Of a stretch of DNA of 64,000 bases, positions 104 to 51,007 are shown piece by piece. The DNA is from Thermobifida halotolerans (GTDB lineage Bacteria; Actinomycetota; Actinomycetes; Streptosporangiales; Streptosporangiaceae): NCBI RefSeq assembly GCF_003574835.2, contig NZ_CP063196.1, positions 2,046,001 to 2,110,000 on the forward strand. Direction: 5' to 3'. The notes under the pieces are model-generated. The model ran no database searches, had not been told where the DNA came from, and worked only from the letters and a program-made list of their open reading frames with translations. A program made the translations under genes and the position numbers. Each line of letters begins with the position of its first letter. Within the stretch, counting starts at the first letter, position 1.

Positions 104-712
104 TCAGGCGGTTCTCACGGCGCGGGCGAACCTGACCACCCGTGCGGCCTGGACCCGGGCCGCGTTCCGGGTGGTCTCGCCGACCGCCGCGGCGTCCGCC
201 CCGCAGGTGTGGGCGGTGCCGTAGGGGTTTCCGTCGGCGAACTTGTCGGGGTGGGTGTATCCGGGGGGGACGATGATCCCGCCGAAGTGGTAGAAGGAGT
301 TGGCCAGGGCCAGCAGGGTGGACTCGCTGCCGCCGTGCGGGCTCTTGGTGGAGGTGAAACCGCTGTAGACCTTCCCGGCCAGCAGTCCCTGGCTCCAGGC
401 GGGGCCGAGCGTGTCGATGAACTGCTTGAGCTGGGCGGAGATGTTGCCGAACCGGGTGGGCGAGCCCATGATGACGGCGTCGGCCCACAGCATGTCCTCG
501 GCGGTGGCGACGGGGATGTCGGCCGTCGCGGCGAGGTGGGCCGCCCATTCCGGTCTGGCGTCGACGGCGGAGCGCGGGGCGGTCTCGGCCACCCTGCGCA
601 GCCGCACCTCGGCGCCGGCCTTCTCTGCCTGCTCGGAGATCTCGCGGGCGATCTGCGCGACGTGTCCGGTCGCGGAGTAGTAGATGACGGCGACTTTCAC
701 CGTGGTGTCCAT
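104..712 (-). CDS. wrbA: WrbA-type NAD(P)H:quinone oxidoreductase (flavodoxin fold)
   Basis: A 202-residue flavodoxin-like protein. The N-terminus reads VAVIYYSATGHVAQIAREI, the FMN phosphate-binding loop (S/T-x-T-G-x) of WrbA proteins. MGSPTRFGNISAQLKQFID is the second flavin loop, and FTSTKSPHGGSESTLLAL with PPGYTHP are further WrbA signatures. Length matches the family (about 200). Known WrbA proteins reduce quinones by two electrons. At the downstream end of the phenazine operon it may handle redox-cycling phenazines or supply reduced cofactor, which is inference. An upstream TTG at 718 lies 5 nt from an AAGGAG and is an alternative start; the ATG at 712 is 11 nt away. Confidence 0.85.
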   Translation of the reverse strand: MDTTVKVAVIYYSATGHVAQIAREISEQAEKAGAEVRLRRVAETAPRSAVDARPEWAAHLAATADIPVATAEDMLWADAVIMGSPTRFGNISAQLKQFIDTLGPAWSQGLLAGKVYSGFTSTKSPHGGSESTLLALANSFYHFGGIIVPPGYTHPDKFADGNPYGTAHTCGADAAAVGETTRNAARVQAARVVRFARAVRTA

Positions 713-839
713 GGCCAAAGCAACTCCTTGTCGCCCGGGCGGGGCCGGGGGGACGGACGGCGGTTCGGGGGGACCGGTCGGAATCGCGCTGCGGCCGGGC
801 GGCGGCCCGGGCCGGGGAAGGGGGGCGGGGCTGTCGCGG

Positions 840-1355
840 CTACCATTCGGCGAGGTGGAGGGCGCTCCACGGCCTCCTTCCCGCCTCGGGGCTGGGTCGG
901 GAGAACGAGCGGTCGCAGTAGAGGAGGGGTGTGCGGTCGCTCACGTGCGTCCGCTCCACCCGGCCGAGCAGGATGCTGTGGTCGCCGGCGTCGACGACGC
1001 GGTACATCGAGCAGGCGACGCGGACGCACGCTCCGGGAAGGCCGGGAAGGCCGAGTTCGCACGGTTGCATGTCCCCTCCGGAGAACCGGTCGACGCCGGA
1101 GGCGGCGAACCTCCGCGCGACCTCCTCCTGCTCGTGTGCCAGGACGTTGACCATGAGGTGTGCGGCCGCGGTGAACGCGGCGTGGCTGCTGGCCTTCTTG
1201 TCCAGGCAGACCAGGACGAGGGGCGGGTCCAGGGACACCGAGCTGAACGAGGTCGCGGTGAACCCCCAGCGTCTGCCCGAGTCGTCGACGGTGGTCACCA
1301 CCGTCACCGGGCCGGGGACCCGGGCCATCGCCGCGGTGAGGAGCGTGTGCTCCAT
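840..1355 (-). CDS. Flavin reductase (HpaC/ActVB-like), partner of a two-component monooxygenase
   Basis: A 171-residue flavin-reductase-like (FMN-binding split barrel) protein. Family features are VPGPVTVVTTVDDSGRRWGF near the N-terminus, then TATSFSSVSLDPPLVLVCLD, then a motif around HLMVNVLAHEQEEVARRFA. Such proteins reduce free FMN or FAD with NAD(P)H and hand it to an oxygenase. The obvious partner is the group-D-type oxygenase at 7619-8833 of the same cluster. The start is the ATG at 1355. The much longer open frame upstream overlaps phzG antisense to nothing sensible and was rejected. Confidence 0.85.
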   Translation of the reverse strand: MEHTLLTAAMARVPGPVTVVTTVDDSGRRWGFTATSFSSVSLDPPLVLVCLDKKASSHAAFTAAAHLMVNVLAHEQEEVARRFAASGVDRFSGGDMQPCELGLPGLPGACVRVACSMYRVVDAGDHSILLGRVERTHVSDRTPLLYCDRSFSRPSPEAGRRPWSALHLAEW

Positions 1356-1429
1356 GGCGTCATCCTTTTCTCCGTCGCGTCGGGAAACTCGGCTGTGCGC
1401 GGGCTCGACCGCCGGCGGGGCGCACCGCG

Positions 1430-2068
1430 CTAGGGCTGGAGCCGCACCGTGTGCCACGTCCGCTCGTGGAGGTCGTAGCGCAGCCTGCGGTGCAGCCGGT
1501 CGGGACTGGCACACCAGAACTCCACCTCGGTGGGCGACAGCAGGTAGCCGACGAACCGGTCGGGGCGGGGCAGGGGGGTTCCCGCCCGCGCCAGCCGCCC
1601 GGCCTCGGCGCGCAGCGCCTCGGCGTCCGAGAGCGGTTCGCTCTGCCGGGAGGCGGTCGACATGGCGTGCAGCGGGTGGGGGCGGGCGGCCCACAGCGCG
1701 TCCGACTCGGCCTCGTCGAGTTGTGCCACCGGTCCGGAGAGGATGATCTGCTGGCCGGTCTCGCGCCAGTAGAGCAGTCCCGACGCCCAGCGCGTGGCCG
1801 CCAACTCCCGGCCCTTGCGGCTGCTGCTGTGGCTGGTGAACACCACGCCGCACTCGTCCAGGCGGGTGATGACCACGATGCGGTTGGAGGCGCGGCCGTG
1901 CTGGTCCGCGGTGGCCAGGGCCAGGGCGCGGGGCTCCCGGACGCCGCGCGCGACCGCCTCGTCCAGCCATCGCCGGACGAGCCCCATGGGCTCGGGGGGC
2001 GGCGTCTCGTACTCGGGGAAGTCGAGGCCGGTCTCCCCGGTGAGGGATTCGAACCTGCTGGTGTCCAT
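1430..2068 (-). CDS. phzG: PhzG, PNPOx-like flavin oxidase of phenazine biosynthesis
   Basis: A 212-residue pyridoxamine-phosphate-oxidase-like protein. SLTGETGLDFPEYETPPPEP, then VREPRALALATADQHGRAS, then KGRELAATRWASGLLYWRET, QQIILSG and the C-terminal HERTWHTVRLQP follow PhzG of pseudomonads closely. PhzG oxidises the tricyclic intermediates formed downstream of PhzB, giving phenazine carboxylates. The start chosen is the ATG at 2068, which places the SLTG block at the usual position; a longer frame to 2125 overlaps phzF. It sits 8 nt after the phzF stop and is last in the conserved phzBCDEFG order. Confidence 0.93.
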   Translation of the reverse strand: MDTSRFESLTGETGLDFPEYETPPPEPMGLVRRWLDEAVARGVREPRALALATADQHGRASNRIVVITRLDECGVVFTSHSSSRKGRELAATRWASGLLYWRETGQQIILSGPVAQLDEAESDALWAARPHPLHAMSTASRQSEPLSDAEALRAEAGRLARAGTPLPRPDRFVGYLLSPTEVEFWCASPDRLHRRLRYDLHERTWHTVRLQP

Positions 2069-2075
2069 CGGGCTC

Positions 2076-2912
2076 CTAGACGTAGAGGGTTCCGCGGGCG
2101 GCGACGGCTCCGTGGCCGCTGACATGGACCGACCGGACGCGCTCTGCGTCTGCCTCGGCCGTGGCGACCATGAGGGAGGGGCGTCCCATCTCGACGCCCT
2201 GGAGGATCTCGATGCGCTGGCCGTACTCGGCGAGGCCGTGCCTGGCCAGGTGGATCGCGAGGGGTCCGGCGGCCGAACCGGTCGCCGCGTCCTCGACCAC
2301 GCCGTAGGCCGGGGAGAACATCCGGGTGCGCCAGCGCGTGCCGCTTCCGGCGAAGCAGTTGGCGGCCATGTCGGGGAAGCGGGACAGCGCCCGGTGGTCC
2401 GGGTGGAGGGCCGAGAGCGCGGCCACGCTGTCGAGCCCCACCAGCACGTGGCGGGGTCCGTTGCGGTAGGCCTCCACCGCCACGGTGGCGGCCGTCACCC
2501 CCAGCGCCTCCAGGAGTTCCGCCGCGTGCTCGTACGGCTCCCAGGTGGGAACCGGCTGGCGCATGCGCACGGTCCTGAGGTCCGCCGCGTCCCCGTCGAC
2601 CTCGACGGGGATGACACCCATCGCGGTCTCCAGGCGCAGGTGCCCGGTCTTTCGGGTCACCGCCAGGGCGACGGCCGTGCCGAGCAGGGGGTGTCCGGCG
2701 AACGGGAGTTCGTTGACCGGGGTGAAGATCCGTATGCGGGCGTCGGCGTCGCCGCGGGGCGGCAGCACGAAGGTGACCTCGGAGAGGTTCATCTCCTTGG
2801 CGATGCGTTGCATCAGGTCGTCGGTCAGGTCGGCGCTGTCGAAGAAGACGGCCACGGGGTTGCCTTCGAGTGGTCGGCGGGCGAAGGCGTCCACGATCAT
2901 GTACTCGTGCAT
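2076..2912 (-). CDS. phzF: PhzF, trans-2,3-dihydro-3-hydroxyanthranilate isomerase
   Basis: A 278-residue protein, exactly the family length. It begins MHEYMIVDAFARRPLEGNPV (diaminopimelate-epimerase fold) and contains EMNLSEVTFVLPP, whose Glu is the catalytic residue in known PhzF. It also has FTPVNELPFAGHPLLGTA and the second-lobe motif VEDAATGSAAGPLA. It isomerises DHHA to the ketone that dimerises to the phenazine skeleton. It overlaps the 3' end of the small YdhR-like gene by 16 nt, so translational coupling is likely. Confidence 0.95.
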   Translation of the reverse strand: MHEYMIVDAFARRPLEGNPVAVFFDSADLTDDLMQRIAKEMNLSEVTFVLPPRGDADARIRIFTPVNELPFAGHPLLGTAVALAVTRKTGHLRLETAMGVIPVEVDGDAADLRTVRMRQPVPTWEPYEHAAELLEALGVTAATVAVEAYRNGPRHVLVGLDSVAALSALHPDHRALSRFPDMAANCFAGSGTRWRTRMFSPAYGVVEDAATGSAAGPLAIHLARHGLAEYGQRIEILQGVEMGRPSLMVATAEADAERVRSVHVSGHGAVAARGTLYV

Positions 2913-3274
2913 GGGCTGCTCTCCGTGTGAGGGGGCGGGTCTGCGGGGGTGAGCGCGGGGCCCAGGCCGTGGAGGGTCGGAAGCGCGTGCAGGCCCTCGA
3001 CCGCGGCCTCGACCTCGAACCGCGAGCGGTGCGTGGGCGGGTAGCCGATCAGTTCGGCCGCGCGGTTGGGCGGCAGCGCGCTGTCGTGGGGGCGGGACTC
3101 CTCCCACACCATCACCGCGCCCCAGCGGTTGCGGTCGCGGTCGGCCATCCACAGCTTCAGCCGCAGTCCGGGGACGTCGCCCCAGACGGCGGCGGCGTCG
3201 GCCAGATGCCCGCGCAGGGTGTCGATGGTCTGCGCGGAGGCGTCCAGGTCCCACCAGGCGATGTCGATCCTCAC
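2897..3274 (-). CDS. Small putative dimeric alpha/beta-barrel protein (YdhR/ABM-like) inside the phz operon
   Basis: A 125-residue protein starting at a GTG whose last two bases begin the phzE stop codon (GTGA overlap); its own 3' end overlaps phzF. The region DVPGLRLKLWMADRDRNRWG followed by AVMVWEES resembles the YdhR/antibiotic-biosynthesis-monooxygenase pattern: a Gly-Leu strand, a Lys-x-Trp strand, then a strand ending in a 'W/F-E' turn. The C-terminal 40 residues are Pro-rich and look disordered. It is not a PhzA/B paralogue. A role as a small oxygenase, cyclase or chaperone for phenazine precursors is only suggested by its position between phzE and phzF. Confidence 0.7.
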   Translation of the reverse strand: MRIDIAWWDLDASAQTIDTLRGHLADAAAVWGDVPGLRLKLWMADRDRNRWGAVMVWEESRPHDSALPPNRAAELIGYPPTHRSRFEVEAAVEGLHALPTLHGLGPALTPADPPPHTESSPCTST

Positions 3275-5163
3275 CGGCCCAGCACCCCCCGGATGGTCCG
3301 GGCGAGGATGCGGGGGCCGTCGACGGTGAGCACCGATTCGGCGTGGAACTGCAGGGAGACGAAGTGCGGCCCGCGCAGCGCGTGCACCTCCCCGCTCGCC
3401 TGGCAGCGGCTGACCTCCACCAGGCCGACCCCGTCGACCTCGCGCTTGTCCTCGGTGCTGTGCGCCACGAACGTGTTGTAGAAGCCGACCCTCTCCCGGG
3501 CGCCGAACAGGTCGATCTCCCGTTGCACGCCCTGGTCGGGGGCGTCCCGGCGGAGCAGTGCGAATCCGAGCCTGAGGCTGAGCACCTGGTGGCTCAGGCA
3601 CACGGCGAGGAAGGGGTGTCGCGTGTCCAGCAGCAGGTCGGCCACCGACCGCAGATGGGCGATGCGGGGGTCGGTGGCCGCACGCGGATCCCCCGGCCCC
3701 GGTCCCAGCACGACCAGGTCGTAGTCCCGCGGGTCGTAGGGCTCGTCGAAGCGCCGCACCGTCACCGACAGCCCCAGGGCCCGGAGCTGGTGGCCGATCA
3801 TCGCGGTGAAGGTGTCCTCCGCGTCGACGACGAGGGCTTCCACGCCGACCAGCCCGTCCACCCGCGCCACCCGGCCGCCGTCGCGCAGCCAGAAGTCCGC
3901 GATCCCGGTGTTGCGGCGCCGCAGGGCCGCGCGCACCTCGGGGTGGTCCGCGAAGCGCGTGTCCGCGCCGGACCGCATCGCGGTGAGCAGGCCGTCGGCC
4001 TTGGCCCGGGTCTCCTCGGCCTCCGAGCGCGGGTCGGAGTGGCGTACCAGCGTGGCGCCCACCGCGATCCGCATCCGGCCGGAGGGGGTGATCTCGGCGG
4101 TGCGGATGAGGATGGCGGAGTCCAGGGTGCGCTCGCCGTCGGCGTCGCGGCCGATCAGCGCGGCGACGCCGCTGTAGTAGCCGCGCCCCTCGGGCTCGTG
4201 GCGGCGGATGACGCGGGTCGCGTTCTCCAGGGGGCTTCCGGTGACGGTCGGGGCGAACATCGTCTCGCGCAGGATCTCGCGCACGTCTCGACTGCTCCGC
4301 CCCTCGATGAGGTACTCGGTGTGCGCCAGCCGCGCCATCTGCCTGAGGTGGGGTCCCGAGACGCGCCCGCCGGTGTCGCAGATCCGCGCCATCATCTTCA
4401 GTTCCTCGTCGACCACCATGTACAGCTCGTCGGTCTCTTTCCGGTCGGCGATGAACTCCGTGATGCCGCGCAGGGTGGGGCCGGTGGGTGGATAGCGGTA
4501 GGTGCCGCTGATGGGGTTCATCGCGGCCACGCCGTGCTCCAGCGAGACGTGCCGTTCCGGGGTGGCGCCCACGAGGGTCCGCTCCGGGGTGTGCACGACG
4601 AAGGTCCAGTAGGCGCCCTGCTCGCGCTCCAGCAGGCGGCGGAAGAGGGACAGGGCGACGTGCGGCGAGTAGTCGCCGACCTCGGCCAGGAAGGAGCGCT
4701 TGATCACGAAGTTGGCTCCCTCGCCGGTGCCGATCTCGTCGGCGACGACCCGGCGGACCGTCGCGGCGTAGTGCGCGTCGTCCACGTCGAAGCGGTTGCT
4801 GTCCAGGCGGATCGGTACGTCGGGGATGCGGCGCACCACGTCGGAGGCGGCCGTACTGCTCTGCTCGGTGACGACCATCGCGACCAGCGGCGCTCCGTCG
4901 TCCGGCACGGTGAAGCCGCGCTCGGCGATCTGCCGGTAGGGGATGAGGACCAGTGCGTCGTGCGCGGGTTTCGGCTCCGGGGGGCGCGGTCCGGTCAGCG
5001 GGATGTCCGCCAGTGTCGCGGGCTGTGTCACCTCTCCGGTCAGGACGTCGACGGTTCCCGGGGTGCCGCCGCCGGCCCGGTGCAGCAGGGCGAAGGCGGG
5101 AGGGGGTGCTGCCAGGATCCGGTCGAGCAGGTCGTGGCCGTGGTCCGCGGCCGGGGGGTTCAT
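3271..5163 (-). CDS. phzE: PhzE, 2-amino-2-desoxyisochorismate synthase (fused MST and glutaminase domains)
   Basis: A 630-residue protein against about 627 in pseudomonads. The N-terminal chorismate-utilising domain (about residues 90-400) holds [36 protein letters not shown] and [13 protein letters not shown]. The C-terminal class I glutamine amidotransferase domain (about 430-630) carries [12 protein letters not shown], the nucleophile loop [17 protein letters not shown] (Cys) and LQFHAES (His/Glu). It converts chorismate plus glutamine-derived ammonia to ADIC. The start ATG at 5163 overlaps the phzD stop (ATGA). An open extension upstream runs through phzD and is not coding in this frame. 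Confidence 0.96.
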
Positions 5164-5783
5164 GCGAACACCTCCTCGGCCGTGACGACCTTCCCGCACC
5201 GCCGTGCCACGTAGTCCAGGGTGAACCGGTGGTCGTCCTCGTGGAAGTCGCCGAGCGCGTCGGCGACCAGGAACGGCTGGATGTCGTTGGTGAACGCGTC
5301 CAGCGCGGTCGCCAGCACGCCCACGTGCGCGTAGACGCCGCACAGCAGCAGTTGGTCGCGTCCGGCCTCCCGCATCCGCTCCAGCAGGTCCGAGCCGTGG
5401 AAGGCGCTGTAGCGCCACTTGGTGAACGTCCAGTCGGCGGCGGTGGGCGTGAGTTCGGGGACCACCGCGCTGTCCGCGGGGTCGGTGCGCATGCCGGGAC
5501 CCCAGAAGTCCGCGAGGAGTCCGCGCTGCTGCGGGGTCATCCGGCCGGGCTGGGCGGTGTAGGCCACCGGCACGCCCAGGGCCGCGCAGTGCTTGCGGAG
5601 CTGGGCGGCGTTGTGGACCAGTTCGGTGCGCAGCGGTTCGGGGAAGGCTCTGAGGAAGTAGTGCTGCATGTCGTGGACGAGGAGTACCGCGCGTTCCGGG
5701 CGCGGCGTCCACCGGACGAGGTTGTCGGGAAGCTGCTCCCGGGTCGGCAGGGAGTAGGGCCTGATCGGCGGGATACCGGCCAT
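5160..5783 (-). CDS. phzD: PhzD, isochorismatase-like ADIC hydrolase
   Basis: A 207-residue protein, identical in length to characterised PhzD. The start [19 protein letters not shown] and [10 protein letters not shown] place the catalytic Asp at residue 38 as in known Phz[17 protein letters not shown] supplies the catalytic Lys region and [16 protein letters not shown] the third catalytic loop. It hydrolyses ADIC to trans-2,3-dihydro-3-hydroxyanthranilate and pyruvate. It overlaps phzE by 4 nt and lies 33 nt downstream of phzC. Confidence 0.96.
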
Positions 5784-5816
5784 CGGGCGTCTCCTTTCGG
5801 GCGGGGCCGGGGCGGT

Positions 5817-7001
5817 TCAGCGGGCCTCGGCCCAGGCCGCGACGAGGGCGGCGGCCTGGTGGGGGTTGAGCCTGGGATCGCACAGCGTGGTGGAGCGGCC
5901 TTCGGCGGCCGTGTACTGGGACGCGTCCGCCACGCACTCGGTCACGTCGTCCGGCGTGGCCTCCAGGTGCAGTCCGCCCGCCACGCCACCGGCCGCGGCC
6001 ACCGCCGCGCGAAAGCCCCGGACCTCGCGCAGCATGGTGTCCAGCAGCCGGGTCTTCCTGCCGGCGGGGGTGGTGACGGTGTTGCCGTGCATCGGGTCGC
6101 ACAGCCAGATCACCGGATGGCCGGCCGCGGCCACCGCCTCCACCAGTGCGGGCAGCCGGTCGGTGACGGTGTCGGCGCCCATGCGCGCGATGAGGGTGAG
6201 GCGTCCCGGTTCCCGCAGCGGGTCGAGCCGCTCGCACAGGGCGGTGATCTCCTCGACGCCCATCGTGGGGCCGACCTTGCAGGCCACCGGGTTGACGACG
6301 CCGGCGAGCAGGTCGACGTGGGCGCCGTCCACCTGCCGGGTGCGGTCCCCGATCCACGGCCAGTGGGTGGAGGCGAGCCAGCGTCGGCCGTCGTCGGTCT
6401 CGCGGACCATGGGGACCTCGTAGTCCAGCAGCAGCGCCTCGTGGCTGGTCCACACCGGGGATTCGGTGTCCGGCCGGGTCGGGGGAAGCGGTGAGCGCCA
6501 TCCGAGCTGCTCGACGATGTCGCTCGCCGCCATGTAGCCGACCAGGATGCGCAGCGGGTCGGGGCGGCGGCTCTGCGGGTCGGGCTCCGGGCTGTTGACC
6601 ATGTGCCCCCGGTAGACGGGCAGGGTGCGGTCACCGACCTGTTCCACGGGGCGGGAGCGGGGTTTGGCGAACTGGCCCGCGATGCGTCCCACCCGCAGCA
6701 CCGGTGTGCCGGTGGCCCTGCCCAGGGTGTCGGCGAGCAGGTCGAGCAGGGCGGTTTTGCGGCGCACGTGCTCGGGGGTGCTCTCCTGCGGGTTCTCGGC
6801 GCAGTCCCCGGCCTGGAGCACGTGGGCCGCTCCGGCGGCGACGTCTTCGAGGAGGGAGCGCAGTACGTCCACACCGTCCACCCCGACCAGGGGCGGGCGG
6901 GACCTGAGGATGTCCCGCACGCGCCGGACCTGGGCGGGGTCACTCCATTCGGGCTGCTGAAGCGCCCCGAGACGCTTACTTTCCGTAACGGCGTATGTCA
7001 A
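5817..7001 (-). CDS. phzC: PhzC, class II (plant-type) DAHP synthase
   Basis: A 394-residue class II 3-deoxy-7-phosphoheptulonate synthase. Visible blocks are LQQPEWSDP near the N-terminus, HVLQAGDCAENPQES, RVGRIAGQFAKPRSRP, STHWPWIGDRTRQVDGAHV, CDPMHGNT and LHLEATPDDVTECV. It feeds carbon into the shikimate pathway, so the cluster secures its own chorismate. The only upstream start in frame is TTG at 7001, with no strong ribosome-binding site, so the exact start is uncertain. It follows phzB by 65 nt. Confidence 0.94.
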   Translation of the reverse strand: MTYAVTESKRLGALQQPEWSDPAQVRRVRDILRSRPPLVGVDGVDVLRSLLEDVAAGAAHVLQAGDCAENPQESTPEHVRRKTALLDLLADTLGRATGTPVLRVGRIAGQFAKPRSRPVEQVGDRTLPVYRGHMVNSPEPDPQSRRPDPLRILVGYMAASDIVEQLGWRSPLPPTRPDTESPVWTSHEALLLDYEVPMVRETDDGRRWLASTHWPWIGDRTRQVDGAHVDLLAGVVNPVACKVGPTMGVEEITALCERLDPLREPGRLTLIARMGADTVTDRLPALVEAVAAAGHPVIWLCDPMHGNTVTTPAGRKTRLLDTMLREVRGFRAAVAAAGGVAGGLHLEATPDDVTECVADASQYTAAEGRSTTLCDPRLNPHQAAALVAAWAEAR

Positions 7002-7066
7002 GGCGGGCCCCCTGGGAAGCGTTGGGAGAAACCGGTCGGAGCACGGAGGTCATGCCGCACGGCCTG

Positions 7067-7558
7067 TCATGTGGGGATCCCCGCTCTCCTGATCGCGGGG
7101 ACCTCGATCCCGAGGGCCCGGAACTGCTGGCACGGGTTCATGAACTCGCGCTGCTGCTTGATCCTGCCGTTTTCGAAGAGGAACGAGTGGATGAAGTGGT
7201 TGCGGTAGTAGCCCTCGGGATATCCGTCGAAGAGGATCCGCCCCTCGCCGTCGCACTCGACCCAGAACCGGTCGGGGTCCTGGGTGTCGAAGATCTCGAT
7301 GTTGGTCCACACCCAGTCCGGGAAGCACTTCAGCGACCACACGGCGTGCTCGGCCAGACGGTCCCGGCCGCGGATGATGATCGGTTCGCCGCTGTCGGTG
7401 GTCCACAGTCCCCCGGATCCGTCCTCGGTGAAGAGCAGGTGCCGGCGGAGTCGGTCCTGTCCCCGGGTGTTCATGTACCGCTCGACGACGGCGCGGTTGT
7501 GGTCGCGCATCTCCTTGTCGTCGGAGAAGCGGGTCGGGAACGCGGTGTCGGTGGACAT
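7067..7558 (-). CDS. phzB: PhzB, NTF2-fold phenazine ring-condensation catalyst
   Basis: A 163-residue NTF2/SnoaL-fold protein. RFSDDKEMRDHNRAVVERYM, LLFTEDGSGGLWTTDSGEP, GYPEGYYRNHFIHSFLFENG and the C-terminal REFMNPCQQFRALGI match the PhzA/PhzB family. Only one copy is present, as in most non-pseudomonad clusters, so this should be the functional PhzB. PhzB promotes condensation of two PhzF products. It lies first in the core operon, 60 nt after the oxygenase gene. Confidence 0.94.
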   Translation of the reverse strand: MSTDTAFPTRFSDDKEMRDHNRAVVERYMNTRGQDRLRRHLLFTEDGSGGLWTTDSGEPIIIRGRDRLAEHAVWSLKCFPDWVWTNIEIFDTQDPDRFWVECDGEGRILFDGYPEGYYRNHFIHSFLFENGRIKQQREFMNPCQQFRALGIEVPAIRRAGIPT

Positions 7559-7618: not shown

Positions 7619-8833
7619 TCACACCAGGACGCTGATCTGCCGGGGGTCCGCGCCGACGAGGGCACGGCCGTAGAGCTGCTGGGGGATTCCCATGCCGAAG
7701 CCCGCGTGCCGGCTCCCCACGTTGATGTCGCGCCAGATCCGCTGGAGCGGGTTGGACTCGTGGAATGCCGAGGAGCCGTACGCGGTGACCAGGACGTCCA
7801 CCGCCTCCCGGCACTGCTGCGCGACGTAGGCGGCGTCCATGCGCGACCGGGCACGGGTCAGCAGGTCCGGGTTGCGCCCCGCCCGCGCGTGGCGGTGGAC
7901 CGTGTCGGCGATGCGCCGCGCGTGCAGCTCGGCGGTGTCGATCCTCGTGGCGGCCTCGGTCAGCGCGAGCTGGGTCGTCGGCGACTCCGCCTGGTTGGCG
8001 TAGGTGGCACCGGCCACGGGACGGGTCGGCGCCTTCTCCCGCACGTAGCGCAGCGCCGCGTCGGCGCCACCGATGAGCGCCCCGAGCAGCCCCAGCGAGA
8101 ACACCCCCGTCATGCTGTTGCGGTAGAGGTTGTCCGCGTCCACCAGCCCGTCCATCTCGCCGTTGCGGACCGGCAGGTACGGCAGCAGGCGGTGCCGGGG
8201 AACGAACACCCGGTCCGCGACCACCGTGTTGCTTCCGGTCCCGCGCATGCCGGTGAAGAACCAGGTGTCCTTGACCCGCACCTCCTCGGCGCGAAACAGC
8301 GCGAAGTGCGGCTGGGGGGTGTCGGCGCCCAGCGCCACCAGCAGGCACACCCACTCGCAGTGCAGGCTCCCCGAGGCGTAGGCCCACTCGCCGCTGACGA
8401 CGGCCCCTCCGTCGACGGGCTCGACGGCCCTGGACGGAACGCCCAGGACCAGTGCGGTGCGCGCGTCGGGGTTGTCCCGCCAGACCTCCTCCTGCGCTTC
8501 TTCCGGGAAGAGGGAGACCACGAAGTTGCCCACGTTCAGCACGCCGGTGACCCACGCGGTCGACGGGCATCCGCGTCCCAGTTCCGTTGCCACGTCCAGA
8601 AGCGTCCGGACATCCGCCTGGTATCCGCCCATCCGCTTCGGCGTCATCAGACGCATCAGCCCGGCGCCGGTGACGCCCGACACCGCCCTTTCGGTGAGGC
8701 GCCGTTCCCGGTCGCTTTCCTCCGCGTCCTCCCACAGTTTCTCCCGGAGCGCTTCGGCCCGTCCCACAAGCGTGTCCCGGTCGGGTGCGGAAATGTCGGT
8801 GGAAAAGGATTCGGTGGCAGTCGAATTGTTCAT
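7619..8833 (-). CDS. Acyl-CoA-dehydrogenase-fold flavin-dependent monooxygenase
   Basis: A 404-residue group D flavin monooxygenase (HsaA / HpaB / ActVA-ORF5 type). Family traits are the all-alpha N-terminal domain with LTERAVSGVTGAGLMRLMTP and GRGCPSTAWVTGV, a central beta-domain with GEWAYASGSLHCEWVCLL, FTGMRGTGSNTV and VFVPRHR, and the C-terminal helical domain with WRDINVGSRHAG. Such enzymes use reduced flavin from a separate reductase, here most likely the gene at 840-1355, to hydroxylate or decarboxylate aromatics. The likely role is phenazine tailoring. The start ATG at 8833 has a GAAGAGATTC leader and the preceding 263 nt can hold the core operon promoter. Confidence 0.88.
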   Translation of the reverse strand: MNNSTATESFSTDISAPDRDTLVGRAEALREKLWEDAEESDRERRLTERAVSGVTGAGLMRLMTPKRMGGYQADVRTLLDVATELGRGCPSTAWVTGVLNVGNFVVSLFPEEAQEEVWRDNPDARTALVLGVPSRAVEPVDGGAVVSGEWAYASGSLHCEWVCLLVALGADTPQPHFALFRAEEVRVKDTWFFTGMRGTGSNTVVADRVFVPRHRLLPYLPVRNGEMDGLVDADNLYRNSMTGVFSLGLLGALIGGADAALRYVREKAPTRPVAGATYANQAESPTTQLALTEAATRIDTAELHARRIADTVHRHARAGRNPDLLTRARSRMDAAYVAQQCREAVDVLVTAYGSSAFHESNPLQRIWRDINVGSRHAGFGMGIPQQLYGRALVGADPRQISVLV

Positions 8834-9096: not shown

Positions 9097-9918
9097 TCAG
9101 TCCCCGTGGGCGGCCCCGGCCGCCCCGTCCCAGCGCCGCCAGGTGCGCAGCCGCTCCTCGTAGGTCTTTCGCACGGTGTCGAGCGCCCAGGCGCCGAGGA
9201 GGCAGCGCAGCGGCGGGTGGGGAGCGTCGACGATGTCGAAGAGGGGTTTGACGGTGTCCTCGGGGTCTCCCGGGGAGATCCCGGCCGACGTGTCGCGCAT
9301 GGCCCGCACCGACTCGGCGTAGGCCTCCCCGGGCTCGGCCCACACCGCGGAACTCCCCCTCCAGTCGGTCCTGTAGGGCCCCGGCTCCAGCAGGGTGACG
9401 TGGACGCCGAAGGGCGACACCTCCTGGGCCAGGGCGTCACTCATTCCCTCGATGGCCCACTTCGAGGCGTGGTAGAGGCCCAGCATCGGCCAGGAGGCCA
9501 GACCGGCGATGCTCGACACCTGCACGATGTGGCCGCCGCGCTGGGCGCGCAGGACGGGCAGGACGGCCTGGGTGACCCACAGGGTGCCGAAGAAGTTGGT
9601 GTCCATCTGGTCGCGGGCCTGCTGCTCGGTGACGTTCTCCACGGGGCCGAAGAGCCCGTAGCCGGCGTTGTTGACCACGACGTCCAACCGCCCGAACCGC
9701 CGGTGGGCGGCGGCCACGGCGGCGTGGACGGCCTCCCGGTCCGACACGTCGAGCCGCAGCGGCAGAACGGCGTCCCCGTGCCGCTCGACCAGCTCGTCCA
9801 GGGCCGAGACGGTACGGACGCCGGCGGCGACCCGGTCGCCGCGCTCCAGTGCGGCCCGCGCCCAGACCCTGCCGAACCCTCGGGACGCTCCGGTGATGAA
9901 CCAGACCTTGCCGGACAC
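9097..9918 (-). CDS. Short-chain dehydrogenase/reductase
   Basis: A 273-residue classical SDR. FITGASRGFGR is the nucleotide-binding glycine motif, VVNNAGYG the NAG motif, QVSSIAG holds the catalytic Ser, and YHASKWAIEGMSD carries the catalytic Tyr-x-x-x-Lys; PGPYRTDW follows. The start is the GTG at 9918 (VSGKVWFITG); longer frames reach into the control region without similarity. It points into the phenazine operon but is separated from the oxygenase gene by 263 nt. Substrate unknown, possibly a tailoring oxidoreductase of the cluster. Confidence 0.88.
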   Translation of the reverse strand: MSGKVWFITGASRGFGRVWARAALERGDRVAAGVRTVSALDELVERHGDAVLPLRLDVSDREAVHAAVAAAHRRFGRLDVVVNNAGYGLFGPVENVTEQQARDQMDTNFFGTLWVTQAVLPVLRAQRGGHIVQVSSIAGLASWPMLGLYHASKWAIEGMSDALAQEVSPFGVHVTLLEPGPYRTDWRGSSAVWAEPGEAYAESVRAMRDTSAGISPGDPEDTVKPLFDIVDAPHPPLRCLLGAWALDTVRKTYEERLRTWRRWDGAAGAAHGD

Positions 9919-10000: not shown

Positions 10001-10021
10001 ATTCGACCAAAACGGTCGAAT
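10001..10021. promoter_or_regulatory. 21-bp perfect inverted repeat, candidate operator
   Basis: The arms ATTCGACC and GGTCGAAT flank AAAAC, an 8-bp perfect inverted repeat with a 5-nt centre. It lies 83 bp upstream of the SDR start and just before the larger StrR-like site. The size and symmetry fit a dimeric regulator. Which regulator binds is unknown. Confidence 0.4.
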
Positions 10022-10043: not shown

Positions 10044-10086
10044 CCCCGGTGTGCAACTGAGGAGAATTCCCAGTTGCACACCGGGG
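10044..10086. promoter_or_regulatory. 16-bp inverted repeat with 11-nt spacer, candidate StrR-family operator
   Basis: The arms (10044-10059 and 10071-10086) are perfect complements of 16 nt. The inner nine bases read GTGCAACTG and CAGTTGCAC around exactly 11 nt. The StrR consensus known from streptomycin regulation is GTTCGACTG, 11 nt, CAGTCGAAC, so 7 of 9 bases per half-site agree and the spacing is identical. A StrR-like gene lies 4 kb away at 14200. The site sits between the divergent SDR and methyltransferase genes. An RNA hairpin role is an alternative. Confidence 0.6.
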
Positions 10087-10535
10087 GCCTTCCCGTCCTG
10101 CCACGGGCTGACGAGGGTTTTCACGGTTCGGCGCTCCGGAACCGGGGCGGTGGGGCACGCACCCCGGAAAAAGAGGAGGCGGACCGGTCGCGGCACGGAG
10201 CGCATTTCCGGGGGCCGTCCGGTGTTTCGGCTCCGCCGTACGTCCCGCGGCTTGCCGCTTCCTTCTTCCACGGGTACGTTTCCGTAACCGTCCCCGTATC
10301 TCGGGGATCACTGCGGCCTCTCCGGGAGAGGGGCGTTCCGCGCTATTCACGCTCCGGCGGCGACGCGGCGAGGAATTCTCCTCCGCCTTCCTTTCCGCAT
10401 GCCCGGAAAAGCGTTCCCGCCGGGCACGGAGGGGAGTTCCCGCCGCGGGTTCCTTCCGCGTGCGGCAGCGAACCGGCGTTCCTCCGGGTGGGCCACCGCG
10501 GTTGCGCAGAACCCGTTCGTTGTGAGGAGGATCGT
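10087..10535. other. Intergenic stretch before the methyltransferase gene
   Basis: No convincing gene in either strand. The stretch is rich in short G/C inverted repeats (for example CCGGAAAAG...CCCGCCGGG near 10395-10425). It probably holds the promoter and a long leader for the methyltransferase at 10536. No clear -35/-10 pair was identified. Confidence 0.4.
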
Positions 10536-11234
10536 GTGACCGACAGAACCGGCCACTCCTACGACTTCACCGAAGCCGACTTCAACGCCGTCTACGAGGG
10601 CGGCGACCTGCTGCCCGGCGCCGGGATCAGAAGTGTCCCCTGGGACATCGGCGAGGCGCAGCCGGCCGTGGTCGACCTGGAGCGCCGGGGGCGCTTTCGC
10701 GGCGCGGTGCTGGACGTCGGATGCGGCCTGGGCGACAACGCCGTCTTCCTGTCCGCACGCGGCTACCGGGTGACCGCCGTCGACGCCGCCTCCACCGCGG
10801 TCGAGCAGGCCAGGCAGCGGGCGCGGGGGGCCGACGTCGAGTTCGCCGTCGCGGACGCGACCAGGCTGGACGACTACGCGGGCCGCTTCGACACGGTGCT
10901 GGACAGCGCGCTCTACCACACGATGGACCAGGCGACGCGCGAACGCTACGTCGCCGAGCTGTACCGCGTCACCCGGCCCGGCGCCCGCCTGAACATGCTG
11001 TGCTTCGCCGACGTGCCCGGAGGGATGCCGGCCCCGCTGGCGGTGTCGCGGGAGAACGTGCGCACCACGCTGGCCCGGGCGGGATGGTCCGTCACCGACG
11101 TGGAACGGGACGTGTTCGTGGGGGTGGCCGCTCCCGTCCGGGACTTCCTGGACAGGACCGGGGCCGCTCCCGAGGTCGACGAACGGGGGCGCACCCGCCT
11201 GCCCGTCTGGGTGGTCCTGGCGGACCGGGGGTGA
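10536..11234 (+). CDS. Class I SAM-dependent methyltransferase
   Basis: A 232-residue methyltransferase. Motif I is VLDVGCGLGDNAVFLSARGY, the acidic loop is VTAVDAAS, motif II/III is FDTVLDSALYHTM, followed by LYRVTRPGARLNMLCF. The start is the GTG at 10536 preceded by GAGGAGG; the longer frame back to 10035 crosses the inverted repeat and has no similarity. Position opposite the phenazine core suggests O- or N-methylation of a phenazine, the usual last step in actinomycete phenazines, which is inference. Confidence 0.87.
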   Translation: MTDRTGHSYDFTEADFNAVYEGGDLLPGAGIRSVPWDIGEAQPAVVDLERRGRFRGAVLDVGCGLGDNAVFLSARGYRVTAVDAASTAVEQARQRARGADVEFAVADATRLDDYAGRFDTVLDSALYHTMDQATRERYVAELYRVTRPGARLNMLCFADVPGGMPAPLAVSRENVRTTLARAGWSVTDVERDVFVGVAAPVRDFLDRTGAAPEVDERGRTRLPVWVVLADRG

Positions 11235-11331: not shown

Positions 11332-11420
11332 CGTGGGGACCGGAGGCGTCCAGGATGGGGCGGGGAACCAGACACCGGTTCAGGCGGTACGAAAGGCCCA
11401 AGGCGAAAAGGACTGCGGTG

Positions 11421-12812
11421 ATGGGCGACAGCAGTGCTCACGGCGGCTTCTCCGACCTGGCGGCCCGGGTGCGCGGCCCGGTGCTGCCCCGTGGAGGGGA
11501 CGGCTACGAAGAGGAGACCCGCGGCTTCCAGACCGGGTTCCACCACCGGGCGGCGGTGGTGGTCGGCGCGGTCGACGCCGATGACGTGCGCGCGGCGGTG
11601 CGGTTCGCGGTCGAGCACGGGATGGGCGTCGCGGTGCAGTCGACCGGGCACGGGGTGACCGTCTTCGACGACAACAGCGTGCTGGTCACCACCGGGCGGA
11701 TGGACGACGTCACCGTGGACCCCGACGCCCGGTGCGCCCGGATCGGGGCGGGGGCCCGCTGGGAGCGGGTGGTCGAGCGGGCCGAACCGTACGGCCTGGT
11801 CCCCCCCAGCGGCTCCGCCGGGCATGTCGGCGTGGTGGGCTACACGCTCGCCGGCGGCATGGGCCTGCTGGCCCGGGAGTTCGGCTACGCGGCCGACCAC
11901 GTGCGCGCCGTCGACGTCGTCACCGCCGACGGCGAACTGCGCCACGTGACCGCCGACAGCGATCCCGACCTGTTCTGGGCGCTGCGGGGCGGGCAGGGCA
12001 ACTTCGGTGTGGTGACCGGTCTGGAGATCGCCCTGCAGCCGGTCGACCGGATCTACGGCGGGGGGATGTTCTTCGGCTCCGAGCACGCCGCTCCGCTTCT
12101 CTCGTTCTTCCGCGAGTGGACGGCCGGACTGCCCGAGGCCATGACCGCGTCGGTGGGGATGATCGGCTACCCGGCGATCCCGGTCTTCCCCGAACCGCTG
12201 CGGGGCAGGCACGTGGTCCACGTCCGGTTCGCCACCACCGACCTGGCCGCGGGGCCGGAGTTGGTGCGGCCGTGGCGGGAGGTCGCCCCGCCGCTCGTCG
12301 ACGAGGTCGGTGAACTGCCCTACAGCCGGGCGGGATCGATCTACCGGGAGCCGGACTTCGCCCACGCCTACGACGGCAACAACGTGCTGCTGCGCGAACT
12401 GGACCCGTCCGCGCTGGAGGCGGTCCGGGAACTGGCGGGGGCCGAGGCGCCGGTGCCGTGCATCGTCGACCTGCGCCACCTCGGCGGAGCGCTGGCGCGG
12501 CGGCCCGCGGTGGACAACGCGGTCTCCTTCCGGGAGGCGCAGTACATCCTGCGGGTGCTCTCCCCGCTCGACGACGCCTCCCTGGCGGACGTGCGCGACG
12601 CCCACGGACGGCTCGAGGCCGCCGTCGCGCCGTGGACGCTGGGGCGGTCGCCGAACTTCGTCTACGGTGAGCGGGACCCCGCCGACCTCAGGTCCAAGCT
12701 CTACGAGAAGACCGTCGCGGACCGGCTGGCGGCGGTCAAGGCCGTCCACGATCCGGACAACGTCTTCCGCTGCGGCCACAGCGCTGTCGCGCCCGCGGCC
12801 GCCGACCGCTGA
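11421..12812 (+). CDS. FAD-linked oxidase (berberine-bridge-enzyme-like)
   Basis: A 463-residue FAD-binding PCMH/BBE oxidase. The N-terminal FAD domain contains VVVGAVDADDVRAAVRFAVE and VQSTGHGV, whose His is the usual covalent FAD attachment site, followed by GAGARWERV and GYTLAGGMGLLAREFG. WALRGGQGNFGVVTGLEI and the C-terminal BBE motif PNFVYGERDP with KAVHDPDNVFRC are typical. The second Cys of bicovalent enzymes is absent (GSAGHVG), so flavin attachment should be single. The start is the ATG at 11421. Role in the cluster: probable oxidative tailoring or aromatisation. Confidence 0.87.
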   Translation: MGDSSAHGGFSDLAARVRGPVLPRGGDGYEEETRGFQTGFHHRAAVVVGAVDADDVRAAVRFAVEHGMGVAVQSTGHGVTVFDDNSVLVTTGRMDDVTVDPDARCARIGAGARWERVVERAEPYGLVPPSGSAGHVGVVGYTLAGGMGLLAREFGYAADHVRAVDVVTADGELRHVTADSDPDLFWALRGGQGNFGVVTGLEIALQPVDRIYGGGMFFGSEHAAPLLSFFREWTAGLPEAMTASVGMIGYPAIPVFPEPLRGRHVVHVRFATTDLAAGPELVRPWREVAPPLVDEVGELPYSRAGSIYREPDFAHAYDGNNVLLRELDPSALEAVRELAGAEAPVPCIVDLRHLGGALARRPAVDNAVSFREAQYILRVLSPLDDASLADVRDAHGRLEAAVAPWTLGRSPNFVYGERDPADLRSKLYEKTVADRLAAVKAVHDPDNVFRCGHSAVAPAAADR

Positions 12813-14199: not shown

Positions 14200-15240
14200 G
14201 TGAACCCCGAATCCGCTCTCCCCAAGGACTCCACCGGTTCGGAAACGGACATCGCATCGCTCCGGAAGCGGTGGTCACAGAACATATCGGCTCCAGAACT
14301 GGTCCCGATAAGCTCGCTGAATCCCGCTGACTCGCCGCGCCACCGCGGACTGAGACCCGAGCACCTGAGAACCCTCACCGAATCCAGGGAGGAACTTCCG
14401 CCCATCCTGGTCCACCGCGCCACGATGCGGGTGATCGACGGCATGCACCGCCTGAAGGTCGCCGCCGACCAGGGAGGAACCCTGATATCCGCGCGGTTCT
14501 TCGAGGGGACGGAGAGCGAGGCCTTCGTCCTCTCCGTCGAGGGAAACACCCGGCACGGCCTTCCCCTGACCCTGGCGGAGCGCACGGCGGCGGCCCGGCG
14601 CATCCTCGCCTCCCACCCGGAGTGGTCGGACCGGATGGTCGCCTCCGTCACGGGCCTGTCCCCCAAGACGGTCCGCGACCTGCGGCACTCCGCCCAGATC
14701 AGTGCTCCCGAGGTCACCGCGCGGGTCGGCCGGGACGGAAGGGTGCGGCCGCTCGACCCCGCGGCGGGCCGCCTCCGCGCGGCGGAACTCCTCCGGAAGA
14801 ACCCGCGGGCGTCCCTGCGCAGGATCGCCGACGAGGCCGGGATCTCCCCCGGCACCGTTCGGGATGTCAAAGAGCGGTTGCGGCGCGGCGAGGAACCGGT
14901 TCCACGGGCCAGGAACCGGAAGAGGATGTCGGGTCCTCCCACCCGGAAGGACTCCTCGAACCTGCCGACGCCCCGGCCGAACCGCGCCCCGGTCCAGTCG
15001 GAGGACCTGCGCGCCTGCCTGGAGACCCTGACCGGAGACCCCGTGCTGCGCTACTCGGAGAACGGTCGCCGTCTGCTCCGGGTCCTCTCCGCGATCTCCG
15101 TCCTCATCGAAAACCGGGAGCAGTTGTTGAGAAGCGTCCCGTCGCACTGGGCGGGCACCATTTACCGGATAGCCATGGAATGTTCCAAGGAATGGCAGGA
15201 ATTCGCCCAGCAGATGGAGGTTCTCGAAGAGGCGCGGTGA
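14200..15240 (+). CDS. StrR-like pathway-specific regulator (ParB/Srx-fold N-terminus)
   Basis: A 346-residue protein. The N-terminal ParB-like domain shows VPISSLNPADSPRHRGLRPE, then LPPILVHRATMRVIDGMHRL and EGNTRHGLPLTLAERTAAAR. It is followed by two helix-turn-helix stretches, MVASVTGLSPKTVRDLRH and LRRIADEAGISPGTVRDVKE. This layout is that of StrR and its relatives, which activate antibiotic clusters. The start GTG at 14200 has AAGGA 9 nt upstream. It is probably the activator of this phenazine cluster, consistent with the StrR-like inverted repeat at 10044. Its own gene has a strong promoter at 13725. Confidence 0.88.
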   Translation: MNPESALPKDSTGSETDIASLRKRWSQNISAPELVPISSLNPADSPRHRGLRPEHLRTLTESREELPPILVHRATMRVIDGMHRLKVAADQGGTLISARFFEGTESEAFVLSVEGNTRHGLPLTLAERTAAARRILASHPEWSDRMVASVTGLSPKTVRDLRHSAQISAPEVTARVGRDGRVRPLDPAAGRLRAAELLRKNPRASLRRIADEAGISPGTVRDVKERLRRGEEPVPRARNRKRMSGPPTRKDSSNLPTPRPNRAPVQSEDLRACLETLTGDPVLRYSENGRRLLRVLSAISVLIENREQLLRSVPSHWAGTIYRIAMECSKEWQEFAQQMEVLEEAR

Positions 15241-15426: not shown

Positions 15427-16338
15427 ATGGAGCTGCGTCAGCTGGAATACTTTATCGCCGTGGCGGAAGAGCAGAGTTTCACCAAGGCCGCCGCACGGCT
15501 GTACGTGGCCCAGCCAGGTGTCAGCGCACAGATCCGGCGCCTGGAGCACGAACTCGGACAGGAGCTTCTGGACCGCTCGGGGCGGAACGTACGGCTCACC
15601 GAGGTGGGAGCCGCCGTCCTCACCTACGCCCGGACCGTCATCGACGGAATCGCCAGCATCCGGCTCACCGTCGACGAGTTCGCCGGACTGATGCGCGGCC
15701 GCGTCTCCATGGGAGTGGTCCGCTCCTGCCCGGCGCTCGACCTGCCCGCCCTGCTGGCGAACTTCCACAAGAACTACCCGGCCGTGGAGATCACCCTGGT
15801 CGAGGAGAACTCCGACCGCCTGCTGGACGACGTCCAGAACGGACTGCTCGACACGGCGATCGTCGCCCTGACGGCCGCCACCCCCGCGGGCATCGACCTC
15901 CACGTCTTCGTCGACGAACCGCTCGTCATCGCCGTCAGCCCCGGCGACCAGCTGGCCGGGGAGAACACCGTCCCCATCGACGCGTTACGCGACCGGACGC
16001 TGACCAGCCTCCCCCGAGGAACCGGCATGCGGGCCTGCCTCGAGGAGGCCTGCTCCGCGGCAGGTTTCGAACCGCGTGTCTCCTTCGAGGTCAGCGACCC
16101 GGACATGCTCGCGCAACTGGCCATCCGCGGTCTGGGACCGGCCGTCCTTCCCGCCTCCCTCGCCGCCGAGTACCCCGAGGAACTCCACGCGATCGCGGTG
16201 TGTCCCCCGCTGCGCGGGCGCATGGCGCTGATCTGGCGCTCGCAGGGACCGCTCAGCCCCGCGGCGCGGACGTTCGTCAACCACGCGCGCAGCGCGCTGG
16301 CGGAGCAGTCGACAGACCCGCAGCCGGAACGCCTGTGA
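15427..16338 (+). CDS. LysR-family transcriptional regulator
   Basis: A 303-residue LysR protein: MELRQLEYFIAVAEEQSFTK and AAARLYVAQPGVSAQIRRLE form the winged HTH, followed by LLDRSGRNVRLTEVGAAVL. The effector-binding domain begins near residue 90 (VSMGVVRSCPALDLPALL). It lies between the StrR-like gene and the exporter gene, all on the same strand. LysR proteins often regulate neighbouring efflux genes, so it may act on the exporter 215 bp downstream and on the shared 43-bp motif. That assignment is inference. Confidence 0.93.
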   Translation: MELRQLEYFIAVAEEQSFTKAAARLYVAQPGVSAQIRRLEHELGQELLDRSGRNVRLTEVGAAVLTYARTVIDGIASIRLTVDEFAGLMRGRVSMGVVRSCPALDLPALLANFHKNYPAVEITLVEENSDRLLDDVQNGLLDTAIVALTAATPAGIDLHVFVDEPLVIAVSPGDQLAGENTVPIDALRDRTLTSLPRGTGMRACLEEACSAAGFEPRVSFEVSDPDMLAQLAIRGLGPAVLPASLAAEYPEELHAIAVCPPLRGRMALIWRSQGPLSPAARTFVNHARSALAEQSTDPQPERL

Positions 16339-18558: not shown

Positions 18559-18804
18559 GCCCCGCGGACGGCCGGATCGCACCGGGCCGCGGCGCCTGAC
18601 CGCCGTGACGGGTCCGCCCGATGCGCGGATGCTGTTGGTGAACCAGGCTCGTGCTGCCGTGTCCCGCCGGGTGGGACCCGGCGGGACACGGCGCCGCCGG
18701 AGGGCGGACGCGGGTGCGGGCACGGGGTATGCCGGTGAGCCGGATACCGGTGCGGACGGGGTTGACCGCGGCAGCGGTGGGTGGGTGCTGCAGGCTGGTC
18801 CTGG

Positions 18805-50560: not shown

Positions 50561-50990
50561 CCACCGGTGGAGCGCGACCGCCGCCGCGACGGTGAGCACC
50601 GCCCAGCCGACCAGTACCGCCGCACCGTGCGCCGGGCTCGCGGTGAGCACGTTGGTGGTGGGTTCCAGCAGGAGGTTGCGTGCTGCGCTCAGCGGCAGCA
50701 GGGCGTCGGCGGCCGGTACGGCGGCGAACAGTTGGGCCATCGTCAGCGCGATGAGCACGGTGACGGCGATGATTCCGGTCAGGTTGCGGCGGGCCAGCAG
50801 CGGGGCGGCGAACCCGGTCAGGGTCATCAGGACCGCGTACAGCAGGAACCGTCCCTGCCCCGTCAGCGCCTCGGTGCTCCACAGCAGGGCGGGGTTCCAG
50901 TCGCCTACGCCCAGGTACATGAAGAGGATCGGCAGTACCGCTCGGACGAGTTCGCCGGGTGCGGTGCTGCCCGCACCGCACCCGGCGAAC
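50549..50990 (-). pseudogene. Second ABC-2 permease, 3' portion only
   Basis: The minus strand encodes LFMYLGVGDWNPALLWSTEA, LLYAVLMTLTGFAAPLLARR, NLTGIIAVTVLIALTMAQLF and GWAVLTVAAAVALHRWDAR, about four hydrophobic segments, ending at 50549. Its stop overlaps the start region of the other permease remnant. The 5' part is replaced at 50967 by an IS5-transposase end that forms the palindrome described separately. Confidence 0.65.
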
Positions 50991-51007
50991 TCGTCCGAGC
51001 GGTACTG
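50933..51007. repeat. 35-bp perfect inverted repeat with 5-nt loop
   Basis: Arms 50933-50967 and 50973-51007 are exact complements around TGCCC. The right arm belongs to the plus-strand end of an IS5-type transposase (GELVRAVLVLQLREA); the left arm is the same sequence inverted and fused into the permease remnant. The same end sequence recurs near 58428-58515. Confidence 0.85.

Follow-up and report, generated by a model that had tools for sequence, protein, structure and literature searches.

A candidate StrR-type operator with guanine at half-site position 3 in a phenazine cluster of Thermobifida halotolerans

The StrR protein of Streptomyces griseus (streptomycin) is a cluster-situated, ParB-like helix-turn-helix (HTH) activator of sites made of two inverted 9-bp half-sites with an 11-nt gap, which can occupy divergent gaps and follow the consensus GTTCGActG-N11-CagTcGAAc, with T at half-site position 3 (PMC8306873). 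The glycopeptide operator of Bbr and Dbv4 is given as GTCCAR(N)17TTGGAC, with C at position 3 (PMC6022936, PMC7852140). This is the same site as that of StrR, since CTG/CAG and N11 make up the N17, and in the 9+11+9 frame the site of the activators Bbr, Dbv4, Tei15*, and AoStrR1 is written GTCCARNNN-N11-NNNTTGGAC. StrR, Bbr, Dbv4, and AoStrR1 have been reported to bind such sites and to activate (PMC8306873, PMC6022936, PMC7852140). NovG (novobiocin) and the StrR-like regulators of lipodepsipeptide, enediyne, and other clusters belong to the same protein family (PMC10886168). The locus studied here shares the inverted half-sites, the 11-nt gap, the divergent position, and a cluster-situated regulator of this family, but differs from the StrR system by G instead of T at position 3 and by its phenazine rather than aminoglycoside cluster, and from the glycopeptide system by G instead of C. 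The ParB and Noc chromosome proteins also resemble the regulator of this locus by a predicted ParB-like fold, with a specificity that comes from few residues in and near the HTH (PMC7383237); they act on parS/NBS as CTP-dependent spreading clamps, whereas StrR proteins regulate clusters and have a second HTH in which residues correlate with the operator.

A StrR phylogeny published in 2024 cites the paper on the esmeraldin (phenazine) cluster in its supplementary references (PMC10886168), so a phenazine StrR-like protein has probably been listed before; the text of that source consulted here reports no operator or function for a phenazine cluster. A partial literature search found no description of StrR control of a phenazine pathway. 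StrR control is known; the phenazine setting, the G variant, and the residue-base rule proposed below seem undescribed in the literature searched. The preliminary description of this DNA had described StrR control as classically known from aminoglycoside and glycopeptide clusters, but StrR-like genes turned out not to be rare in phenazine clusters, as 21 of 201 searched genomes of the bacterial family had PhzB and 13 of these 21 had a StrR-like gene within 20 kb, often directly upstream of phzB.

The window, i.e., the whole 64,000-nt stretch of T. halotolerans DNA that was analyzed, carries the dyad between the head of a leftward phenazine (phz) run and a rightward pair of genes for a methyltransferase (MTase) and a FAD-linked oxidase, followed rightward by the StrR-like gene, a LysR gene (15427), and an MFS exporter. 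The features are as follows:

104..7558, minus strand: phz core and tailoring genes (PhzB, PhzC [class II DAHP synthase], PhzD, PhzE, a small ydhR-like protein, PhzF, PhzG, a flavin reductase, and a WrbA-like protein); the run ends at base 104
7619..8767, minus strand: HsaA-like flavin monooxygenase of the leftward run
9097..9918, minus strand: SDR oxidoreductase at the head of the leftward run; its start codon and the dyad centre are 147 bp apart
10044..10059, no strand: left arm of the perfect dyad, CCCCGGTGTGCAACTG
10051..10079, no strand: candidate StrR-type operator core, GTGCAACTG-N11-CAGTTGCAC, with G at position 3 of both half-sites
10060..10070, no strand: 11-nt spacer aggagaattcc, whose GGA...TCC ends are the spacer preference of other family sites
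10071..10086, no strand: right arm of the perfect dyad, CAGTTGCACACCGGGG
10536..11234, plus strand: MTase, putative target on the divergent side; its start codon and the dyad centre are 471 bp apart
11418..12812, plus strand: FAD-linked oxidase, BagK/FevA1-like, downstream of the MTase
14200..15240, plus strand: StrR-family regulator of 346 aa, with a ParB-like N-terminal domain, two HTHs, and a helical C-terminus

The preliminary description had reported a perfect 16-bp dyad with an 11-nt gap between the divergent SDR and MTase genes, inner half-sites agreeing with the StrR consensus at 7 of 9 bases, and a StrR-like gene in the same cluster, and each of these points was borne out. The arms of CCCCGGTGTGCAACTG-aggagaattcc-CAGTTGCACACCGGGG (10044-10086) are 16 nt long and 100% complementary, the recount against GTTCGActG-N11-CagTcGAAc again gives 7/9 bases for each of the inner halves (GTGCAACTG and CAGTTGCAC), and the 346-residue gene is real and the sole StrR-like match in the 5.5-Mb genome, 4.1 kb from the dyad. 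The candidate operator core lies in a promoter region of a cluster with a StrR-like gene and consists of inverted 9-bp half-sites with exactly 11 nt between them. Compared with the StrR/NovG form GTTCRACTG-N11-CRGTYGAAC, this 9+11+9 part agrees at 8/9 bases per half, and it departs from the strict published consensus GTTCRACTG only by the G at position 3. In the whole genome, the GTTCRACTG-N11 form is approached to within 2 mismatches at this dyad alone. Perfect arms of at least 16 nt with a gap of at most 30 occurred 3 times in the real window and never in 40 first-order random copies of it. A chance origin of the dyad was ruled out by these random copies, by its uniqueness in the genome, and by the excess of N11 sites around StrR relatives described below.

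The outer 7 bp of each arm (CCCCGGT) extend beyond any StrR consensus, which does not account for them. Outward perfect palindromes of unrelated sequence, 7 to 12 bp long, were seen at three G-type sites (window, 10044-10050 and 10080-10086; L039, 9746; L062, 11042), far beyond chance for 66 sites. No sigma-70 promoter match was found near the dyad. A second perfect dyad, TTCGACC-AAAAC-GGTCGAA (10002-10020), lies between the StrR-type site and the SDR start; no other copy occurs in the genome when up to 1 mismatch is allowed, and it is possibly the operator of another regulator of the phz side. The 330-bp gap between the SDR and monooxygenase genes leaves room for another promoter. Elsewhere in the window, two perfectly complementary 35-nt arms lie 5 nt apart within an ORF (50933-51007) and may form a genuine hairpin or reflect a misassembly, and a perfect dyad with 17-nt arms and a 3-nt gap (18656-18692), just downstream of a SnoaL-like gene, is a hairpin without a T-run.

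The comparison covered about 150 relatives overall. Sites were counted in 92 stretches (1.78 Mb) surrounding StrR relatives. At N11, pairs of the half-site GTNCRACYG, required to be symmetric at position 3, numbered 28 as exact matches and 49 when up to 1 mismatch was allowed; the remaining gaps between 5 and 17 gave 0 to 2 and 0 to 5, respectively, and half-sites with permuted columns gave 0 to 2. A generic count of all dyads by gap gave no N11 excess, because chance dyads swamp the signal that the half-site-specific count reveals. With up to 2 mismatches, 74 sites were found, 22 inside strR genes and 52 elsewhere. Across the family sites the spacer ends prefer GGA...TCC, and CCG is often paired with CAG, a C-A mismatch that breaks a stem and fits a protein. 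When one site was counted per locus hit (up to 1 mismatch, clear context, genes called by a simple codon-position score), 61 sites outside strR were divergent (23), codirectional (32), convergent (5), or inside a gene (1), a placement that is operator-like and not terminator-like. In many StrR relatives, the strR gene itself also contains a StrR-type N11 site, which encodes the peptide (R)STEG.PQSN C-terminal to the first HTH (L009, L017, L023, L030, L034, L048, L059, L074, and others, near base 10390-10450); the strR gene of the window and its nearest relatives, in contrast, have neither the in-gene site nor the peptide.

The 346-aa protein is homologous over most of its length to proteins of 79 loci at 42 to 56% identity, including S. 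griseocarneus, S. bluensis, and S. toyocaensis records, and 35 columns are invariant over 59 StrR-family proteins. Its AlphaFold2 model (mean pLDDT, 86.7) predicts a ParB-like N-terminal domain, a first HTH at residues 144 to 164, a second HTH at residues 206 to 229, and a helical C-terminus. The published descriptions consulted name one HTH (PMC10886168). The two HTHs are encoded as follows:

14629..14691, plus strand: first HTH, residues 144-164, WSDRMVASVTGLSPKTVRDLR, which resembles the second HTH
14815..14886, plus strand: second HTH, residues 206-229, in which Gly218 and Arg221 correlate with half-site position 3

With SPKTVRDLR in the first and SPGTVRDVK in the second, the two look like an internal duplication. 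Each half-site together with half of the spacer is long enough for both HTHs to touch DNA. The best Foldseek matches were ParB, Noc, and KorB (E about 1e-5), and Pfam HTH_23 matched with an E of 1.4e-6. By sequence, no ParBc Pfam match was obtained for the 346-aa protein and a search of solved structures returned no match, the fold search alone making the link to ParB/Noc.

Among 107 family sites with up to 1 mismatch, position 3 was T in 75, C in 18, and G in 14, and never A. Since G recurs in these 14 sites, the departure of the window at this position reads as a recurrent variant and not as a loose match. The letter was first seen to follow the second HTH among 41 loci: sites had C where one residue of this HTH was Glu, and G where the same residue was Gly and the third residue after it was Arg. 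In the window protein, the two positions are occupied by Gly218 (14851-14853) and Arg221 (14860-14862), which the confident AlphaFold2 model places second and fifth in the recognition helix (217-229); most of the surveyed StrR relatives whose sites are of the C type have Glu in the place of Gly218. The rule held for 70 newly fetched loci, from which ten already known loci were set aside: Glu only went with C, PGTxR (Pro-Gly-Thr-x-Arg) with G, and neither with T, with L207 and the two-StrR loci L190 and L191 as exceptions or mixed cases. Counted as one member per 70%-identity cluster (59 clusters), Glu went with C in 7/7, PGTxR with G in 7/7, and GTx followed by a residue other than Arg with T in 15/15, while Ala, Ser, Thr, or Asn went with T in 21/23 (2 C) and GTxR without Pro gave 4 T and 3 G. 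The helix-letter association had Fisher p values of 1e-7 and 4e-7 with the clusters treated as independent. On the tree, whose backbone is weak and poorly resolved, the Glu state changed at least 3 times and the position-3 letter at least 11 times, and only 2 phylogenetically independent pairs were supported, a comparison with no power. The picture was the same over all loci with the shorter pattern GTNCRA-N17-TYGNAC: E came with 5 C and no other letter, G..notR with 23 T and 1 C, and G..R with 13 G, 5 T, and 1 C.

Glu-to-cytosine and Arg-to-guanine are familiar protein-DNA contacts, and the second HTH of StrR proteins may pair residue and base in this way. We consider it reasonably likely that recognition-helix residue 2 and the residue three further on set position 3 of the operator: Glu would select C; Gly with Arg, above all after Pro, would select G; and a small residue, or Gly without Arg, would select T. 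The window would then represent a third, G-reading class, in which the operator changed in step with the helix although the phenazine clusters are syntenic in other respects.

Two such syntenic phenazine clusters, L143 and L142, have a gene set in common with the window and carry N11 dyads of their own, GTCCGACCG-cggaaattccg-CAGTCGGAC in the SDR/MTase gap of L143 and GTCCAACCG-gggaatttccc-CGGTTGGGA in the monooxygenase/MTase gap of L142. The 11-nt gap and the frame are kept in all three dyads, while the arms changed on both sides together. The window combines SPGTVR with G at position 3, and L142 and L143 combine Glu with C. From the dyad centre, the first phz-side start codon is at 147 bp in the window, 164 bp in L143, and 160 bp in L142, while the MTase start is at 471, 187, and 124 bp, respectively; the phz-side distance being kept and the MTase distance varying, the phz side is suggested to be the constrained target. 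Other phenazine clusters with a StrR gene (L144 to L152) had only degenerate or convergently placed sites. In L144 and L146 to L152, where strR is upstream of phzB, degenerate GTGCAACTG-like sites lie ~1.7 to 2.3 kb upstream of strR, mostly where genes converge next to an ECF sigma factor gene. The L144-L152 sites, most of them at converging gene ends and with at least 2 mismatches, were dropped as support. In seven phenazine clusters that lack a StrR gene (L153 to L159), allowing up to 2 mismatches outside position 3 revealed no site.

The reading of the dyad as a StrR-type operator, already put forward in the preliminary description, is supported by the following: (i) its uniqueness in the genome, (ii) the N11 spacing of the family, (iii) its conservation, with co-varied arms, at the promoters of the syntenic clusters, and (iv) the G at position 3, which agrees with this reading because the SPGTVR helix of the window predicts it. 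We propose that the dyad is very probably the operator, in its G variant, of the StrR-family protein encoded at 14200 and that this protein would switch the pathway on through it. A dimer of the 346-aa protein would occupy the two GTGCAACTG half-sites, which repeat at 20 bp (two turns); in each subunit, the second HTH would read the outer GTGC, Gly218 and Arg221 at the helix tip accepting the G at position 3. From its position 147 bp ahead of the SDR start codon, the bound protein would turn on the leftward phz run; from the same site, 471 bp upstream of the MTase, it would perhaps also activate the MTase-FAD oxidase pair, resulting in a single pathway switch. Binding, dimer geometry, activation rather than repression, and the identity of the responding genes are all predicted here from sequence; binding of the protein to the dyad appears highly probable, and activation of the phz side quite probable.

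The alternative that survives best, though we regard it as rather unlikely, is that the dyad is a StrR operator acting as a repressor or fine-tuning site for one side only (MTase or SDR). Since only the phz-side distance is kept among the three clusters, only the phz side may respond, and the 471 bp to the MTase start are long and count against direct activation of that gene; the characterized family members, however, are activators (PMC10886168, PMC7852140, PMC6022936). Much less probable is an operator of another regulator, whether the LysR protein encoded at 15427 or a regulator outside the cluster, with a StrR likeness due to chance. The LysR gene adjoins strR and could be a second or the main regulator of the cluster, and operators in divergent promoters are common in many regulator families. 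However, the site is unique in the genome and near its only StrR gene, StrR-type N11 half-sites are kept in the syntenic clusters, position 3 agrees with the StrR helix in the window as well as in both of these clusters, and the stretches fetched for L142 and L143 yielded no LysR homologue. Equally improbable is a role as RNA, either as an intrinsic terminator or as a hairpin in a 5' leader, for which the perfect 16-bp stem with its 11-nt loop would fold strongly and the outer palindromic extensions also speak, but which we rejected in view of the absence of a T-run on either strand and of any terminator match, the position between diverging genes, the divergent rather than convergent family placement, the gap fixed at 11, and the frequent C-A mismatch.

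If the StrR-type operator is real, a phenazine pathway could be switched on by way of one site and one regulator gene, and control of the StrR type would be a common arrangement that also takes in phenazine clusters. If true, the helix-base rule would unite the operators of StrR (T) and of the glycopeptide regulators (C) in one family code, with G as its third letter, and would make the targets of uncharacterized StrR-like regulators predictable from sequence.
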